A stretch of 60,741 nt of DNA from an uncultured Verrucomicrobiales bacterium (GTDB taxonomy: Bacteria; Verrucomicrobiota; Verrucomicrobiia; Verrucomicrobiales; DEV007): positions 1-60,741 of the forward strand of contig CALAHF010000228.1 of NCBI GenBank assembly GCA_937891465.1. The letters are read 5' to 3'. The notes under the pieces were generated by a model. That model made no database searches, was not told the origin of the DNA, and saw only the letters and a list, made by a program, of their open reading frames with translations. Each line of letters starts with the position of its first letter. Positions within the stretch are counted from its first letter, which is position 1. Below are positions 1,510 through 55,295 of this stretch, one piece after another. The translations under genes were made by a program, and so were the position numbers.

Positions 1510-1552
1510 CGATCGAACAGGGTAAATTCGTCATACAGACCCTGTTGGATCG
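1510..1552. repeat. 43-nt dispersed palindrome, copy 1
   Basis: Arms at 1510-1523 and 1539-1552 are complementary with one mismatch; right arm ACCCTGTTGGATCG. It lies between the convergent beta-barrel and DUF3307 genes, where a bidirectional hairpin could also end transcription. Confidence 0.85.
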
Positions 1553-8604: not shown

Positions 8605-8668
8605 TACCCCTTAAACACTATCTGAAGCCTAAAGTTTCAGAAGAAACGGAAAAACGATTCATCAGTAT

Positions 8669-8751
8669 CGGTTCAGCGAACCAACCCTATTCGATCGTTT
8701 TGGCATTTCGAACCAACAGGGTGCGTTCGTCAAACATACCCTGTTGGTTCG
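8669..8751. repeat. 43-nt palindrome copy 2 plus adjacent half-copy
   Basis: A full element at 8709-8751 has perfect 14-bp inverted arms (CGAACCAACAGGGT with ACCCTGTTGGTTCG). A half-unit ending CCCTATTCGATCG lies just before it at about 8669-8699. Both lie between the typA stop and the start of the deiodinase-like gene, so they could act as a hairpin ending typA transcription, though no long T run follows. Confidence 0.9.
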
Positions 8752-15354: not shown

Positions 15355-15429
15355 CGATCCAATAGGGTTGGTTCAATGATCCAATACTATCGGATCGAAA
15401 CGGCTTCACGAACGAACCCTGACTGATCG
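15355..15429. repeat. 43-nt palindrome copy 3 plus half-copy
   Basis: A 43-nt element at 15355-15397 (left arm CGATCCAATAGGGT, degenerate right arm) is followed by a half-unit at about 15406-15429. It lies in the short gap between convergent gmk and the minus-strand membrane protein gene. Confidence 0.8.
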
Positions 15430-21746: not shown

Positions 21747-21789
21747 CGAACCAACAGGGTTGATTCATCGGACGTACCCTATTGGATCG
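21747..21789. repeat. 43-nt palindrome copy 4
   Basis: Left arm CGAACCAACAGGGT and right arm ACCCTATTGGATCG, exactly 43 nt. It fills most of the 62-nt gap between the convergent lpxD and exbD stops. Confidence 0.9.
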
Positions 21790-22978: not shown

Positions 22979-25900
22979 TTATTGATTCTCCTCCATATCA
23001 ACATTTTGCGCTTCGCGCTCGAATTGAGCGAGCATTTCGGGCAGCGCTAATCGGCCCCGGGAGTATTTTGCGGCATCGGATTCGGGGAAATCCCAGCGAC
23101 AACGATTGTAGCGCCGGAAGGCGAAGGGAACGTTATTGCCCTGGCGATAGCTTTCCCCCGCCCAAAACAGCGATTGGCCGGCAAGGTCGTCTTCGGGAAA
23201 TCGTTTCACAAAATCATCAAAGGCGAGGCCCGCTTCTTTATATTTCTCGTCTTTGTAAAAACACTGCCCGACCCGGAAAGCCATTCGGGGAGCCCATTCA
23301 TGGTTCTCAAATCGCTCAAGAAACTTCGCTCCGACCTGCGCGGCGACTTCAAATTCTTCAAGCACGTAGAAATGCTCGTTGATCCGAATCATCACATTTG
23401 AAATGAGCGGATTTTCCGGGTACGTCGCGGCCAGAGTCACATAGGCCTCAAGAGCTTCATCAAGTCGCTTCGCCTCCTCGTAGCATTGTCCCAGTTTGTA
23501 TTGTGCGTCTGCGGCGAGGGTGTGATCAGGATACTGTTTCACGATGGTTTCGTAAGCCTCGATTGCCTCGTCCCAGTTTTTTAATTCCTGAGCAAATTGC
23601 CCAAGGAGATAGGCAACGCGGGCCGCATATTTTGGATCGGGATAGTCTTCTTGAAGCTCTTTCAGAACCCGTCGTCCGTTTTCCAAATCCGTGTCGGCTT
23701 CTTCTTTTCGATCCAATTCCAAGTGGCTCTTGAAGAGTTCAAAGAAGCTCTCTGCGATATGAAATTGGGTCTGAATTGCTAAATCTTCATCGCCAAATAT
23801 TTTGGTGAATGCAGCGAGATCGCCGTCGGTTCCATCTGACACGGGAATTTCGGTAACGTGGGGAACCGCGGCCTCGTCCGGGGTTGCCGGACGATCGTCG
23901 GTGTATTTTGCGATCATTGCCTGGCCGAAGAAGGCCTCCAGCTCTGGCGAGGTGGGGTCAAAATTCCCCGGGATGGGCTGCGGCACGGCCTTTAGTTTGA
24001 AAGACCCGGTAAAAATGCCGCTGTGATTGAGCGTTTCCTCAAGTGGCACCGTTTCTTTTTCTCCATTGGCGGATTCGACCGCGACATCAATTTTATCGCG
24101 TTCGTCGGTGATGTCTTTATCTGCATCGGAAAATCGCAAATACAAGCGCTCGCCAACCTGCAGCTTTTCCACGACTTCCTCGTAAGCGCTATCGGTGGCC
24201 GCGAGTGAGCCGTTTCCAAGAATGCGCGCTCTGTCTGACAGGATAGCTTCACGCTCAGGCAGGGTCTGTTCGTCGATGTAAGACCCTTGGATCGTGTCGG
24301 CACCGGTGAGGTTAAGAACTCCAATCAAGCCGTCCTCGATCGTTTCAGAGTCGTCTACAGGCAAGACTCGACCGATCAACGCATTTGCTGAAACTCCAGG
24401 AGCGCGGGGAATCAATGTGGGACTGTTGGATCCCCCAAGACGCATGGTGACTTGCCCTACAAACCGGCCTTGATGCAGCGCCGGGTTCCGAACCTGCGCA
24501 AGGGAGTCGTCGAGATCTGAATGAGCCGCCGAAATTCGGCAGGCGACCTTAACGGGTTCGGTTCCTTCGGGAGCGTTTGCGAGAGTCAGTGAAACTGTGA
24601 CTTCGGAGCGCGAATCTCTCGCTGCATCTTCATCAATGACTTCAACGGTAAGCGGAACGTCATAAGCGACCCCTTTGATTACTCCTTCTGCGCTTTCCGA
24701 ATTCGAAAAGGTGACTTTTGATTGAGCACCTTCAGTTTGTGGAGGTGTGACGCGGGTTTCAAGAATTCGAAAACGCCCTGCCGTTGGTTCTCGAACATAA
24801 ATCACCGCATCGCGATCGATCGCGTGGCCGGGAAAGGTGTTCTCTTGATCTCGGTAGGTAAAGTAAATCTGGTCTCCCGATTTGATGGCTAGTTTTGGCA
24901 GATCGGATTCAGGCGCGGGATCTGTTTCCGCGTCTTCTTCTTCTTCTTCTTCGGTCTCTCCATCTTCAGAAGCAATTTCCGGCTTCACTTCAGCTACCGG
25001 TGCGTTGGGATCAAACGTATCGATTTCCGTTTTGAAGATACCCGAGGTGGATTCGGTTTCCGTCGCAAATAATTCGACGGGAGCTCCATCACCAATCTGA
25101 ACCTTCACTGGCACTTTGTCTCGTTGGCCGGTGGAGTCCAAATCAAAATCTACGATCTCCAGCGTGATACGTTCTCCGGGATCAATTCGTAGCAGGTCTT
25201 TCTCGGTCTCTTCAACCGTGCCGTTGCTATTTCTGACGAAGTCGTAGGCGATCGGGGTGATTGAGCCGTTGTAATACGTGGCGTTGAGTCGTTCTGAGAG
25301 AGCGCGATTTTTAGGCTCACCACCCGTTGGGAGTTCATCGATGTAGGTCGATTCGAGTTGATCCCCCGGAGTGATTTCAAGAATGTTGTTGCTGGAGAGC
25401 TGCATCAAATCCTGTTCGGTCGGAATAAATTGGTCCTTAGGGCTTGCCACGGTAACAGAGTTGATGGCAACGGCCTGGCCTACATATTCGTCGATCACCA
25501 TGCGCACGTGACGAAGCTCGCGGGGCTCAATTCCAAATTCCCATTTTCCTTCGTCATCAGCCGACATTGTGCCGAGTGGATAGTTGCCCGCCGGTTTCAG
25601 ATCGGCAGCAAAGGCCTGATTCAAATCAAAATCCTCCGGCACGAATCGAGTCAGTCGAACTTGGCTGGTATTTGGATTCTCGCGGGTTCTCAACACTCCG
25701 ATGGGCCGGCGGCCCGAATCGCTTGTCGAAGCAAAGAAAATCACTTCGTGGAGCCCGGCTTCAAGATAGACATCAAGTTCCACCTGACGCTGAACTTTGA
25801 CGATAGGCTGAATCAGCAGGCCATCTATCATGGCACCAGCTGTTTGGCCCGAAATAGCGAATCGCACGGCACCATCTCGCGGTTGAATGAAAGCGCCCTG

Positions 25901-30376: not shown

Positions 30377-32791
30377 TTAGATTCCCGCCTTCACCAGCGC
30401 ATCGCTGATCCGTTTAGCTTCTCCGGCGACGGAGCTCTCGGGGAATTCATTGATCAATTGATCAAACATTCTTCGGGCTTCCGCTTTGCGATCGAGGCGG
30501 AACAGGCATCGACCGTAGTTGAACAAAATGACGTCGAGGAAATTCGCGTCGGGATACTCAGAGAGAACATTTTCGAAGACATCGATCGCTCGCGAATAGT
30601 CCTGTTTTTTGTAATAGAAATTCGCCATCTTCGCAACGGCGTCACCGACTCGACCACTGTCGGGAAACGATTCGTAGACCTTGTGATACTCAACAAAAGC
30701 CCTTTCATACAGCGCGTCTGATTGAGCGATGGCTGCATCGGCGGCCATCTTTTCGTAGGTTTCGGCAATGCCAAATTGAGCCTCACCCTTCAGCGGGCTG
30801 TCGTTCAAACGAAGAATCGAACCATACAATCGGATCGCGTCCGGCAATTTCCCTTGCGCTCGAAAGGCATCTGCCTGTTGCAACATCGCTTGATCTACAA
30901 AGGTTGATTCCGGAAATTCTTTCATCAACTGCTGGCTCATCGCCACCGCGAGATTGTAGTTTTCCATCGCAAAATATGTCCGCCACAGCTGCACATAGGC
31001 GTTTTCCAAAATCGATCCGCCGAGTTTTCGTGCCTCGGCTAGAACTTCGTTGGCGACCGAAAGTGCTTCTTCGTATTTTAGGTCAGCCTTTTTCTGAAGG
31101 CCAAATTCACGGTAGTGATTGCCGATATTCGTCAATGCATCGGCAGAGCCCAGTTGCGTTTTGATTTTCAACTCCGCGTTTGAGATGTCGGTTTTGGTCA
31201 CCCTGACATTCCCTAAATTGCCTTCGATGCAACGAGCTTGCGCAGTCAGATCAATCGAAGCGCGGGTAAGATTTTTTTCGTCGCGATAGCGAAGTCGCAA
31301 CAAATCCCCCGGCTGAGCCTGTAAAATCGAATCGCCCGCCTTTGGCGTTGCTTCGTCTGCGATGACGACTTGTCCGCGGAAAATCCCACTGTGAACTGTT
31401 GGTGGCGCGTCTTCTGTTTCAGTGATCGGAGCGCTTTCTGGAGCGGGCGCTGCATCGTCGCCAGGCGTTTCGTCTGCGGTTTCCACTTCGTTGAAAACTT
31501 CGCGAACAATCGAAGCTTCAGTCAGCGTCACTTTGGTTTCATCAATTTTCTTAAACCGTTCGACCTTCAAATCCACCTTGCCGTCTTCATTTGTTTCTGC
31601 GAGCGGATCCTGTTTTGCGGCCGCCGCTGCGATCTCTTCATCCAGCTCTGCGGTTGATTTCTCACGCCAGATTTCTGCTGTTGCGGTCAGTTTGTCGGCC
31701 CCGTCACCTGTATCAAAATCGGCGTCGAGAATTTCCAAGTTCGCCTGTTTTCCGATGACCACACCTGCAAGCGTGTCGCCAAACGATCCGTCCATGATTT
31801 GCGCGATTGCTGTTCCAACGACGTTGACGGTGTATAAACGCTGCTCATCAAATTTTCGGTCGGCTGTTTGGGCATCGATGTAAGTGACTTCAATTGTATC
31901 TCCGCCCTGAACTTCAAGCCGGCCATTTCCATGAGCGGGAGCGCCCAGGGCTGTCGGTATCGATCCCAAAATCACGCGAACCTGACGCCCGATCGGATGG
32001 CAAATCACATCTTCTTCATCGCCACTCTTCGCTTTGCAGCGAAGCGTCACGGTTTCGCCTGGCTCAAGAACGGCGAGGTCTTGATCGGCGACTTTCACGA
32101 AAAGCCGCTTTCCAGCTTCTACTTTGTCTATCTGAGCATCTTCTTCAGAAAGCGCGGTTCCCACTTTTTCCAACGCTTCAATGGCCCGGCTGTAATGCCC
32201 CTGTTTAAAATGGCCGAGGCCGATGAAATAATAGGCCGAGTTTACTTGTTCCGAAGACGGGTAATCTTCGATCACGCGGCGCAATACTTTGAAGCACTGG
32301 CCATACAGTCGACCTTCGTAAAAACAAACCCCCGTTTGCAGTGCCGCCGCAGCACGTTGCGCGTCATCCGTGTTGGCTTCGACATCGACAGCTTCAAAAT
32401 GACCACGCGCTTCATCGAAAGCGCGACGTTTTTCGAGGAGAAAACTTCCCAATCGCAAATGGGCATCGAATCGAAATTTCGAGCGCGGATAGCGTTCGAT
32501 AACTGACCGCCAGATCTCGAGCGCTTTTTCGGTTTCTTCCGCTTCGATTCGGGCGTCACCCGCTTCGAGCAATTTTTTCGCCGCGCGATCTTCAACAATC
32601 GATCCCCGAACGGGCGCGTCTTGAGCGTTGAGGAACGAGATGAAAAGAAGTGTAGCGACGATCCAACCCTGTTGGATCAACGAACAGACCCTATTGGTTC
32701 GTGAGGGCGAAACGAACAGACCCTGTTGGTTCGATGAGCCAACCCTATTGGATCGTGAAAAAGGATTTTTTGCGGGAGTGTTCGGGATCAT
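30377..32791 (-). CDS. Secreted TPR protein with the same beta module (804 aa)
   Basis: The N-terminus is odd: residues about 13-44 are encoded by four half-units of the dispersed palindrome, and only then comes the hydrophobic signal core WIVATLLFISFLNAQ. After this come TPRs (about 65-215), two to three beta modules like those of the giant neighbour (about 230-530, including THSGIFRGQV-like PTVHSGIFRGQVVI), and C-terminal TPRs (about 540-800; DFSRAIDVFENVLSEYP-type units). The true start may be an internal TTG (Met-Ile-Gln-Gln-Gly) within the repeat, giving a signal with no basic residue. Only 21 nt from the giant gene, so almost certainly in one operon. Confidence 0.85.
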   Translation of the reverse strand: MIPNTPAKNPFSRSNRVGSSNQQGLFVSPSRTNRVCSLIQQGWIVATLLFISFLNAQDAPVRGSIVEDRAAKKLLEAGDARIEAEETEKALEIWRSVIERYPRSKFRFDAHLRLGSFLLEKRRAFDEARGHFEAVDVEANTDDAQRAAAALQTGVCFYEGRLYGQCFKVLRRVIEDYPSSEQVNSAYYFIGLGHFKQGHYSRAIEALEKVGTALSEEDAQIDKVEAGKRLFVKVADQDLAVLEPGETVTLRCKAKSGDEEDVICHPIGRQVRVILGSIPTALGAPAHGNGRLEVQGGDTIEVTYIDAQTADRKFDEQRLYTVNVVGTAIAQIMDGSFGDTLAGVVIGKQANLEILDADFDTGDGADKLTATAEIWREKSTAELDEEIAAAAAKQDPLAETNEDGKVDLKVERFKKIDETKVTLTEASIVREVFNEVETADETPGDDAAPAPESAPITETEDAPPTVHSGIFRGQVVIADEATPKAGDSILQAQPGDLLRLRYRDEKNLTRASIDLTAQARCIEGNLGNVRVTKTDISNAELKIKTQLGSADALTNIGNHYREFGLQKKADLKYEEALSVANEVLAEARKLGGSILENAYVQLWRTYFAMENYNLAVAMSQQLMKEFPESTFVDQAMLQQADAFRAQGKLPDAIRLYGSILRLNDSPLKGEAQFGIAETYEKMAADAAIAQSDALYERAFVEYHKVYESFPDSGRVGDAVAKMANFYYKKQDYSRAIDVFENVLSEYPDANFLDVILFNYGRCLFRLDRKAEARRMFDQLINEFPESSVAGEAKRISDALVKAGI
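32659..32755. repeat. Cluster of four palindrome half-units in a signal-peptide region
   Basis: Four copies of the right-arm motif ACCCT(G/A)TTGG(A/T)TC occur at about 24-31 nt spacing over 97 nt. They overlap codons about 13-45 of the 804-aa TPR gene, giving the recurrent peptide pieces NRVGSSNQQG and NRVCSLIQQG. Confidence 0.9.
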
Positions 32792-37174: not shown

Positions 37175-38317
37175 GTGGGCTATCTTGACGACAAAAAAAA
37201 TTCAAAACCTGATACGCCGCTTGCAGAAGTGATCTTTCAACAGATCGAACAAGCGGAATCCAAGTCGATTTCCTTCGCGGATTTTATGAGTTTGGCGTTG
37301 TATCATCCTGATCAGGGCTACTACGCAGCTCCGGCAGAACGAGTGATTGGGAGGTCTGGCGACTTTTTCACCAGTGTCAGTGTGGGAGACACCTTTGGAT
37401 TTGTTTTAAGTCACGAAATCGAGCGGAATTGGGTAGAAAATTTCGAATCTGCCGAAAATTTTACAATCATCGAGCAAGGCGGGCATGATGGGCAGCTCGC
37501 CATCGATGTGGTAACGGCTTTGGAAGCTCGTCGGCCGGATTTTTTTGAAAACGGAGGCCGCTACGTGATTGTCGAGCCGCGAGAATCGGTTCGAGAGCAG
37601 CTGCAGCTTCGTTTCGAATCAATAGGGTTGGTTCAGCGAATCAACCCTGTCGGATCGTTTTCCGAGGCGCGGGGCGAACAGGGGATATTTCTCGCGAACG
37701 AGCTGCTTGATGCTTTTCCGGTGCATCGCATTCAGTTCGAAAACGGAGTGTGGCGCGAATTGCATGTTACGCGGTGGAATGATGGATTTGCGTGGCAGCC
37801 GGTCGAAATTCTCGCCGATTCTGCGCTTGAGGATGAAGTTTCGCGGTTGGGTGAAGATTTTCCGGAAGGCTACATCACCGAAATTTGTCTCGCGGTTACC
37901 CAATGGCTTTCCGAAGCGGCCTCGGCTTTTTCGAAACGAGGCCTGTTCTGGATTTTTGATTACGGATTTGAAGATGACGACTTTTTTGCGTCGCACCGCA
38001 CCACCGGCACGCTGCAATGTTATCGGAATCACGAAAAATCAGAGAATCCCTTCGAAAGGGTGGGCGAAACCGATCTGACAACGCATGTGAATTTCAGCCA
38101 TCTCGCTCGCGAAGCCGCCAATGTGGGGCTCGGGAATTATTTGCTCACAGATCAGCATCATTTTCTGATTCGGGCCTCCGAAAAGTGGCTTCGGTCGATC
38201 GATGGGGTCGTCCCCGATGCTGAAACTGCGAAACGCATCCGGCAGTTTCAGACGCTGACTCACCCTGGGATGATGGGGCAGAGTTTTAAGATCGCGACGT
38301 TTGCGAAAGGGCATTGA
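37175..38317 (+). CDS. MidA/DUF185 family SAM-dependent methyltransferase
   Basis: 380 residues, GTG start. The family features are ISFADFMSLALYHPDQGYY, GRSGDFFTSVSVGDTFG, EQGGHDGQLAIDV (SAM-binding) and LANELLDAFPVHR. Relatives include the mitochondrial arginine methyltransferase NDUFAF7; bacterial targets are unknown. Residues about 147-161 (ESIGLVQRINPVGS) are encoded by a 43-nt dispersed palindrome lying in frame in a variable surface region. Divergent from the PBP gene with only 21 nt between starts, so promoters must lie inside coding sequence. Confidence 0.85.
   Translation: MGYLDDKKNSKPDTPLAEVIFQQIEQAESKSISFADFMSLALYHPDQGYYAAPAERVIGRSGDFFTSVSVGDTFGFVLSHEIERNWVENFESAENFTIIEQGGHDGQLAIDVVTALEARRPDFFENGGRYVIVEPRESVREQLQLRFESIGLVQRINPVGSFSEARGEQGIFLANELLDAFPVHRIQFENGVWRELHVTRWNDGFAWQPVEILADSALEDEVSRLGEDFPEGYITEICLAVTQWLSEAASAFSKRGLFWIFDYGFEDDDFFASHRTTGTLQCYRNHEKSENPFERVGETDLTTHVNFSHLAREAANVGLGNYLLTDQHHFLIRASEKWLRSIDGVVPDAETAKRIRQFQTLTHPGMMGQSFKIATFAKGH
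37615..37657. repeat. 43-nt palindrome copy inside the midA-like coding sequence
   Basis: Left arm CGAATCAATAGGGT, inner TTGGTTC/GAATCAA pairing and right part ACCCTGTCGGATCG, exactly 43 nt like the intergenic copies. It is read through in frame as part of the methyltransferase, with no stop. Confidence 0.9.
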
Positions 38318-41580: not shown

Positions 41581-41678
41581 CGTTCGAAAAGTTTCGAATG
41601 AATCGGGCCTTTTTTGAAAAGGGGAACCGATCTGCGTCGACCGGAAGTTGAATGGGCAAGGTAAGCCGAGTCGTCACA

Positions 41679-42119
41679 TCGTCTGACGGCATCTAAGGGT
41701 CATTCGAACATGTCTTCTGTTTGCGGGATTAAATCTCAAAGTAATATGTCGGAATTTTTTGGTCGTCTGAAGAAATGTTTGAGCCGTCAACTTAACTCTA
41801 AGAGTTGTCCGATTTAATCTAGTGAACGTCTGATAGCATAGTAAGATCGTCTGACCAAACCTAAGGATGATTTGTTGAAATCTTCGAGTCATCTGATTAA
41901 ATCATACGATTGTCTGATTGCACCTCTGGCTGGTTCGAATGTATTTAAGAATCGTGCGATTCAATTTCGTGAACATGTGACTGCGCCTTTGGATGATCTG
42001 ATTAAAATCTGAAGTCGTCAGACGGCAACTCAGGGTCGTTAAAATGCATCGTTTGGTCTTCTGATGACAACCTCTGGTCATCTGATTCAATCTAGGGACA
42101 GTCCGATTGGAATTGCAGA
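41679..42119. repeat. Indel-free 21-nt-period degenerate array (21 units)
   Basis: Twenty-one consecutive units of exactly 21 nt can be laid out from 41679 to 42119, each a variant of TCGTCTGA-(T/C)(T/A)..A(T)CTAAGG. Units differ strongly, yet I find no insertion or deletion. On the minus strand one frame is open over 151 codons (42126 to 41674) except for one TGA at 41902-41904, and reads as a heptapeptide repeat with consensus Leu-Arg-Phe-Asn-Gln-Thr-Ile/Thr. No start signal or known family supports a gene. Twenty-one bp also equals two DNA helical turns. Confidence 0.9.
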
Positions 42120-42130
42120 TCATCAAGGAA

Positions 42131-42652: not shown

Positions 42653-42695
42653 CGAACCAATAAGGTACGTTCGATGAATCAATAGGGTTGGTTCG
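42653..42695. repeat. 43-nt palindrome copy 6
   Basis: Starts CGAACCAATAAGGT and ends AGGGTTGGTTCG, again 43 nt, though its right half is closer to a left arm. It lies just past the end of the unknown basic protein gene. Confidence 0.75.
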
Positions 42696-47318: not shown

Positions 47319-47513
47319 CGAAACAACAGGGTGGGTTCGGCATGGAAAGGCTGAGTGCCACGATTTCACTTCATGGCAGCGGCTACCCTTTTCCGTGGAT
47401 GAACTTTTCGAAATGTATTCGCGAGACGTTCGAATTTTGGAAAAATTCTTCCAACTCAAATTCCCTGGAGCGATTTGATAGGGTATGTTCGCTAAATCAA
47501 CCCTGTTGGTTCG
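47319..47513. repeat. 43-nt palindrome copy 7 plus half-copy
   Basis: Full element at 47471-47513 (CGATTTGATAGGGT ... ACCCTGTTGGTTCG-type right arm) and a half-unit near 47319-47341 (CGAAACAACAGGGTGGGTTCGG). Both are in the 262-nt gap upstream of the symporter and downstream of the PQQ-propeller gene; no gene is seen in the gap. Confidence 0.8.
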
Positions 47514-50271: not shown

Positions 50272-50314
50272 CGAACCAACAGGGGTGGTTCATCGAACAT
50301 ACCCTATCAAATCG
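50272..50314. repeat. 43-nt palindrome copy 8
   Basis: CGAACCAACAGGGG ... ACCCTATCAAATCG, 43 nt, 15 nt upstream of the ceramidase start, so it may overlap its promoter. Weaker fragments (GGTAGGG, CTGTTGGATCG) follow up to about 50412. The remaining gap to about 50540 has no clear gene. Confidence 0.85.
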
Positions 50315-53700: not shown

Positions 53701-54157
53701 CATTGGAAAACCCTGCACCTCTCAACCCCTGCGGGACCGGCGTCCCGATGAGAACCTATTGAAAAAGCTAATTCCCATCAGTAATCACCCAAAAATTGGA
53801 ATTCTGGATGTAGGAAGGAAGATTTTCGACATGCACCGCTATAAATTGTCCGGTGGAGGCTATCGGTTCAAGGTAGTGGCATGACAGCAGGCGGTTCAAC
53901 CAGCTGTCGTCACTGTGGATCTTGCTCCATTTTTGAGTTTCTGAAAAAAGATTGGTCTGAGCGATTCCCGCTATTTCCACGAAGTTTCGCGGGCGGTGGA
54001 GTTGCTGATCAGCGGGGAATGCGACGGGGCTCTGACCTTGCGATGGGAGTGACGTTGCAAGGTATACTGAAAAGACTTATCTGAATGCAGCCCCTCAATC
54101 CCTGCGGGACTGCGCCCCCGATAAGAGTTCTTTGAAAAATCAAATTCCTTTCAGTTT

Positions 54158-54835
54158 ATGAAAAAGTGTTTCGCATGCCTGGTTGGACTGGTCGCGTTCA
54201 TCGTCACGTCACTTCATGCCGACATTTATCATGTGTCTCCGAATGGCGGTGGGAAATACCCCTACCGTAATTGGAAAGATGCCGCCGTAACTCTTCAGGA
54301 TGCGGTTGATGCTGCGGTCAAGGTCGGGGACGATGAGGCAATCGTTCTTGTGCGAAAAGGGGTTTACAAGGGAACTGGAGTGGGGCCGGTGGTGAAGATC
54401 ATTCGATCACTGACGCTGAAGAGCGAATCCGCCGACCCGGCAGATGTGATTGTCGATGGTGAAGGCAAAAGGCGCTGTATTTTGGTGACCTTGGAGGAAA
54501 AGGGCGCCAAGGTTTCATTCGAAGGAATTACGATCAAGAATGGTTTCACTGACGCAACAAATGGCTACGGCGCTGGCATCTATATTGATCATACAAAAGT
54601 CAACGCCGGTGAGGTCACTATTCAGCGTTGCGTGATCAGCGATAGTTCAAAGACTTCTCCGTAGCCGCATAATCATGGGGGCGGCCTCTCTTCACGCGGA
54701 CAAACGGGGTCGGCTTTCCACACAATCGTCGACGATTGCCTGATTTCCGGAAACGTTGTGGCCAATAAAAAATCAAGCGGCGGTGGTGTGGCGTTCTTGA
54801 ATACCCGGCTAACCATGAAAAAATGCCGGATGTAA
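54158..54835 (+). pseudogene. Right-handed beta-helix surface protein, amber stop and truncated by IS21 remnant
   Basis: A signal peptide (CLVGLVAFIVTSLHA) is followed by a parallel beta-helix start (IYHVSPNGGGKYPYRNWKDAAVTLQDAVDAA, IVLVRKGVYKGTG, VSFEGITIKNGF). Frame stops at TAG 54662-54664, but the same frame continues with clear family sequence (HNHGGGLSS, TIVDDCLISGNVV, SSGGGVAFLNTRLTMKKCRM) to TAA 54833-54835. That end coincides with the first IS21 terminal repeat (54837), so the original gene was cut by the insertion. Such proteins usually carry a long C-terminal part, absent here. Confidence 0.75.
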
Positions 54836-54836
54836 A

Positions 54837-55172
54837 TGTCGGGATAATTCCGGTACGGGTGTCGGGATAATTCCGGTACGCTTGTAGGTATTTTAATTTC
54901 AAGGTTAGATTGAGTCAAGATTGGTGTTTTTCAGGACTTTTCCAATGGCTGTACGGTGAGGAGCCCGCAGGGCGACGAGGCGTCCTGCCATCGGGGCGGT
55001 TATCCCCCCTTCGTTTTTTGTTGCGGTTTCCGGGCATCTTTGAGGCGATAGCTTTCACCGTTGGCCTCTATAATGTTGACCCGGTGTGTCAGACGATCGA
55101 GCAGTGCTCCGGGCTTTCGCTCCAGCAATGCCAGATAATGCACCGGATCAGAGTGAACCTGCTCCTTTTTCC
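54837..55172 (-). mobile_element. IS21-family remnant with internally deleted istA-istB
   Basis: Two tandem 21-nt copies starting TGTCGGGAT at 54837-54857 and 54860-54880 resemble the multiple terminal repeats that begin with TGT in IS21 elements. On the minus strand from about 55172 to TAA at 55000-55002 the frame reads DPVHYLALLERKPGA, typical of IstA, joined directly to LLDRLTHRVNIIEANGESYRLKD, the IstB C-terminus. The catalytic IstA core and most of IstB are gone, so the copy cannot move by itself. Confidence 0.75.
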
Positions 55173-55295
55173 AGTCGCGCCTCCACTCCCAATCCCATCC
55201 CGACCGAAACGCCGATAAGAAAACCTTGGAAAAGCAAATTCCTATCGGTTATCAGTAGATCCAGATTCACCGAACAGAGAAAAATTTAAAACACG

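Follow-up and report, generated by a model that had tools for sequence, protein, structure and literature searches.

A 43-bp double palindrome read in frame within a midA-like gene belongs to an evenly spaced chromosomal element family in Verrucomicrobiales

How does a palindromic DNA element come to be read as protein inside a gene for a midA-like methyltransferase? The question is raised by a stretch of 60,741 nucleotides from an uncultured Verrucomicrobiales bacterium, referred to here at its full length as the window. The initial annotation described a full 43-nt palindromic copy within this gene, likened it to the Rickettsia palindromic elements (RPEs) that insert into genes in frame, and concluded that the element can be tolerated as protein sequence.

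The element copy in midA and its host protein

The copy itself is borne out. CGAATCAATAGGGTTGGTTCAGCGAATCAACCCTGTCGGATCG is 43 nt long, occupies exactly 37615-37657 of the window and is read in frame and free of stops (FES-IGL-VQR-INP-VGS), encoding ESIGLVQRINPVGS, residues 148-161 of MidA. The features at this locus are:

37175..38317, + strand: midA-like SAM-dependent methyltransferase gene, host of the element (Pfam PF02636 Methyltransf_28/MidA, E=8e-48)
37615..37657, no strand assigned: 43-bp element inside midA, position-weight matrix (PWM) score 56-57
37615-37635 and 37637-37657, no strand assigned: half-sites of the midA element, two 21-bp palindromes with one base between

The gene, whose functionality had been left in question, is intact and conserved. 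An insertion of the Rickettsia type led the initial annotation to expect that element-free MidA homologues would be shorter by about 14-15 residues or carry unrelated ones; the alignment gives about equal lengths. The window's MidA has 43 residues between anchors, compared with 35-48 in relatives of other genera, and the alignment with PDB 4f3n is gap-free across the element; therefore no insertion of 14-15 residues is present, and a simple RPE-type insertion in midA is ruled out by the length comparison. Target-site duplication was also sought, and flank identity at 2-9 bp proved equal to or below that of shuffled sequence. Genera that are free of the element carry unrelated MidA residues at this position, similar in number and not 14-15 fewer, in agreement with the annotated variability of the region within the family.

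In the same-genus relative G001 (60% amino-acid identity), the element lies at identical midA codons and the INPVGS peptide is unchanged. Had the DNA similarity been coincidental, relatives would be expected to encode the same peptide with unrelated codons. Instead, the similar peptide is written with largely the same codons, and third positions are equal at 9 of 11 codons in the element, the figure for the remainder of midA being 41%.

Copies, anatomy and placement of the element

A PWM search over 1.60 Mb of the bacterium's own genome returned 288 copies, or about 1,074 per genome, which establishes a genuine palindromic element of genome-wide extent. In 460 kb of this genome there are 88-90 copies; simulated order-3 Markov sequence (500 kb) gave 0 at all thresholds tried, and the element is therefore not a product of chance. 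Its consensus, CGAACCAACAGGGTTGGTTCGnCGAACCAACCCTGTTGGTTCG, is made up of a pair of 21-bp palindromes whose centres lie 22 bp from each other, with one base between, and is flanked by T-rich and A-rich stretches. Spacings between half-sites are almost exclusively 22, 32, 54 and 76 bp, about 2, 3, 5 and 7 helical turns, and neighbouring elements less than 150 bp apart are separated by exactly 54 bp in 38 of 42 cases. The window holds 11 good copies, the one in midA included, and one degenerate copy. The remaining copies, together with a solo half-site, are as follows, none with an assigned strand:

1510..1552: element copy, convergent gene gap
8655..8697: element copy, first of a 54-bp doublet
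8709..8751: element copy, second of that doublet
15355..15397: element copy, convergent gene gap, with a weaker overlapping match at +32
21747..21789: element copy, convergent gene gap
24252..24294: degenerate copy, score 23, within a predicted 2459-aa ORF
32659..32701: element copy, first of a 54-bp doublet, located at the start of gene 30377-32680
32713..32755: element copy, second of the doublet with 32659..32701
42653..42695: element copy, long intergenic gap
47319..47339: solo 21-bp half-site
47471..47513: intergenic element copy
50272..50314: element copy, divergent gene gap

The same-genus relative has a copy (L178) at a place similar to that of 32659..32701, relative to the aligned gene start. 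An Rfam search of the window matched a tRNA only, and gave nothing for the element. Two other repeats were seen in the window. A degenerate array of about 21-nt period (GTC...TCTGATT motifs; spacings 21, 84 and 189) at 41670-42120 takes up part of an intergenic region of 1.7 kb adjoining an element copy and could be an iteron-like or other candidate protein-binding array. Three 65-nt direct repeats at 53718-55249 (CCTCTCAACCCCTGCGGGAC... and relatives), 68-74% alike, form a separate family.

The symmetry of the element resides in the consensus. Across 256 copies, no covariation of paired positions was detected, either across the 43 nt or within each 21-mer, with observed values at the independence expectation. 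This makes selection for a hairpin unlikely and confines palindromic symmetry to the consensus, the pattern to be expected of sites bound by protein dimers. RNA folding agrees, with a mean MFE of -14.0 kcal/mol for real copies and -13.2 to -13.8 kcal/mol for column-shuffled ones. At the centre of the element, both CpG flanks are lost (A at position 21 with T at position 23) in 8 copies versus 32 expected; joint loss is avoided, an epistasis between the two flanks. None of the 256 copies are identical to one another, but near-identical pairs (40 or more of 43 positions) outnumber those of a block-shuffled null by a factor of 3-4, which would allow for some copying from one locus to another. The panC copy (C20:71067) and the cysS copy (C162:18797) of the own genome are identical at 42 of 43 positions, although both positions are also occupied in another genus. 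Their similarity suggests inter-locus copying or strong convergence.

Most copies lie outside genes: 231 of the 288 are intergenic, 38 overlie gene edges, 8 fall within a predicted gene but close to its end, and 11 are deep intragenic, for an intragenic share of about 4-7%. Convergent gaps are favoured (42% carry an element versus 19% of divergent gaps), and elements are often placed 5-15 nt past a stop codon, at 15 nt or less in 42 of 98 tandem cases. Along the chromosome an element locus is met roughly every 5-6 kb, a regularity greater than chance would give. In the own genome, the coefficient of variation (CV) of spacing is 0.65 compared with 0.87+-0.05 for random intergenic placement (reached in 0 of 500 simulations), a null built on gene calls made within this analysis. 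With doublets merged, intervals below 2 kb make up 4% versus 21% expected, and none fall below 1 kb. The relative G001 behaves similarly (CV 0.44 vs 0.80+-0.09; 0 of 2000 simulations). Intragenic copies score as well as intergenic ones and are located in stretches somewhat longer without an intergenic gap (P=0.046). One 36-kb stretch of the own genome, C163:77378-113552, is element-free and has a GC content of 54% against about 51%; it is possibly acquired DNA.

The family is narrow in its distribution. When 57 genomes of the order were searched with the element model, 8 proved positive. Genus g1 contributes two genomes and g12 four, in each case the full set, and two g2 genomes have traces only (2-3 matches). 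Carriage in number is limited to two genera within a single Verrucomicrobiales family, and named public matches are exclusively Verrucomicrobiales MAGs. A literature search, mainly of non-subscription papers, found no published description of it. Intergenic positions shared by two species are enriched (odds ratio 5.7, in a set of mixed ascertainment), and among strictly syntenic gene pairs, few as they are, 0 of 6 element positions are shared between the two species, from which we take it that intergenic sites turn over.

Intragenic copies and third codon positions

Besides midA, five host genes carry same-place, in-frame copies in orthologs (P0001, P0002, cysS, panC and pyrD), and the reading frames used differ among them. 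The element is at the same codons in G001 in midA, P0001, P0002 and cysS, in four g12 genomes in panC and cysS (eroded in cysS), and in two g12 genomes in P0001. The pyrD copy is at the same place in G012 and absent from G001 pyrD. RPEs likewise are palindromic, lie in frame in unrelated protein genes and recur at the same place in orthologs. They are, however, inserts of about 100-150 bp in genes (PMC10969869, PMC3767692) rather than 43 bp, and nearly half of the first-reported R. conorii copies are intragenic compared with 4-7% here.

RPEs also differ in lengthening their host proteins. No net gain of 14-15 residues was found in MidA, PyrD, PanC or CysS, four of the six host genes that were tested. 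The interval between anchors is 33 residues in PyrD, within the 30-37 of relatives, and PanC has 66-67 with the element versus 67-68 in element-free relatives, with distant PanC structures aligning through the element with small gaps at most. CysS, compared with PDB entries, has 71-76 residues with the element (intact in G001) versus 63-69 without. The P0002 element is in a linker of variable length. The P0001 protein has 39 residues versus 34 in g2 (+5) and 20-22 in more distant genera (+17-19). Since it is longer than in other genera, an old insertion is conceivable there, by which P0001 may have gained residues.

We then compared third codon positions at identical residues in the six host genes, taking orthologs regardless of element carriage. 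Within the genus, 30 of 39 (77%) inside the element are conserved, compared with 45% outside it (P=1e-4). In the sister genus g12, whose genomes are not independent, the figures are 51 of 80 versus 42%, and in element-free outgroups 23 of 74 (31%) are conserved at the place of the element versus 41% elsewhere. Third positions are thus conserved inside the element, indicating that the DNA itself is constrained. The midA copy looks like a DNA signal kept at silent positions, not a parasitic insertion. Of the earlier view that the element is tolerated as protein, the part that stands is that it is read as protein; conservation of its silent sites goes beyond mere tolerance. Loss of an intragenic copy is illustrated at C19:32195 of the own genome, where a half-decayed copy (score 22) corresponds to an intact one (score 56) at the same intragenic site in G001, contig C466.

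Candidate explanations for the element

A mobile palindrome similar to REPs or MITEs, evenly spaced through target immunity or anti-clustering selection and with the midA copy as an old in-frame insertion, is in our estimate unlikely. Such an origin would account for the high copy number, the palindromic form and the bias to intergenic space and gene 3' ends, as in REPs (PMC3733652), for the turnover of positions between species and the excess of near-identical pairs, and for gaps that are longer in carriers than in non-carriers by a median of 47 bp (six noisy cases). Like REP, BIME and REPIN sequences, the element is a short, mostly extragenic palindrome in hundreds of copies, often paired, biased to convergent gaps and occasionally intragenic, and protein-binding roles are reported for REPs. 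It differs from them in that neither GTAG nor CGTC is present at the ends of the consensus, the stem does not covary and no intact RAYT (Y1_Tnp) was found in the own genome. The sole match there is broken by an internal stop; with the assembly at 96% completeness, a further copy may lie in the unassembled part. Membership in the RAYT/REP system was rejected for the missing tag and the broken Y1_Tnp, and that in MITEs for want of both target-site duplication and an evident flanking transposase. No parent transposon emerged either; the genes lying between the closest element pairs look like ordinary host genes. Fixed 22/32/54-bp phasing, even spacing and intragenic silent-site constraint further set the element apart from REPs, and identical copies are lacking among the 256, as is lengthening of the four host proteins. 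The broken Y1_Tnp match, a decayed transposase of the IS200-like/Y1 kind, lies among other GC-rich repeats at L039 1501-1960 (contig C171 of the own genome).

Sites might also accumulate in place, through the preference of a competence receptor followed by biased uptake and recombination, as for DNA-uptake sequences (USS/DUS). These share with the element about 1,000-2,000 copies per genome and an even spread, significant according to Karlin as quoted in PMC1939737, and an in-place origin would explain codons overwritten without lengthening. They are nonetheless about 10 bp, non-palindromic and 35-65% within ORFs (PMC1939737), whereas the element is a 43-bp double palindrome with an intragenic share of only about 4-7%, and we regard an uptake signal as improbable. 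A transcribed hairpin, acting as a terminator or 3'-end mRNA stabiliser, is very improbable. Placement shortly after stop codons, enrichment in convergent gaps and the foldability of copies as RNA (mean MFE about -14 kcal/mol) speak for it, but folding energy is close to that of column-shuffled copies, the flank after the stem is A-rich rather than a U-run, copies sit deep in coding sequences and in divergent gaps, and Rfam offers no match. Covariation and folding energy over the 256 copies led us to reject an RNA or cruciform hairpin. As for the midA peptide being conserved for protein function, with the DNA similarity incidental, INPVGS is identical in the same-genus relative, yet the same DNA recurs at hundreds of mainly non-coding loci, the frame differs among host genes, the region is variable elsewhere in the MidA family and conservation of silent sites is limited to sequences with the element. 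The number of copies and the use of different frames refute this explanation, whose probability we consider negligible.

The account that we favour, with somewhat more confidence than doubt, is that the elements are chromosome-wide sites for a putative dimeric or tetrameric DNA-binding protein with a role at the scale of the chromosome. Constraint at the DNA level, dimer symmetry without covariation and fixed helical phasing were all found, and from these we infer both protein binding and a part in chromosome architecture. A putative sequence-specific protein would bind each 21-bp palindrome as a dimer; two adjacent dimers on one face of the helix would form one unit, and units would sometimes be doubled 54 bp away. 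Given that a spacing of about 5-6 kb between units is maintained, the set would most likely serve the whole chromosome (in folding, segregation, or the anchoring of a protein of the nucleoid or of DNA topology) and not individual genes. In midA, the protein would accept the peptide while the DNA site stays selected. The bias to stop-codon-proximal positions and convergent gaps also fits REP-like or transcription-linked roles, and turnover and near-identical pairs leave room for copying or replacement in the origin of sites.

We group the element with distributed chromosomal sites. The parS, matS and KOPS sequences and the Noc and SlmA sites are protein-bound sequences spread along the chromosome, for the most part palindromes and in some cases within genes. 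The element resembles them in its spread, its binder being putative, but the known sets are of shorter sites and are domain-restricted or strand-skewed. We know of no set with a 2x21-bp unit every 5-6 kb. More tentatively, the element may act as a chromosome ruler in two or three Verrucomicrobiales genera, in which a putative architectural protein has about 1,000 sites, one per roughly 5-6 kb, and selection on spacing writes sites into coding sequence.

High-copy bacterial palindromes are in most cases read as mobile elements or RNA hairpins. Silent-codon constraint, absence of covariation, helical phasing and overdispersed spacing point here to a DNA-binding architecture system. The element provides the exact bait sequence for finding the binding protein and, if this reading is true, the demands of chromosome-scale spacing would be visible in protein sequences.
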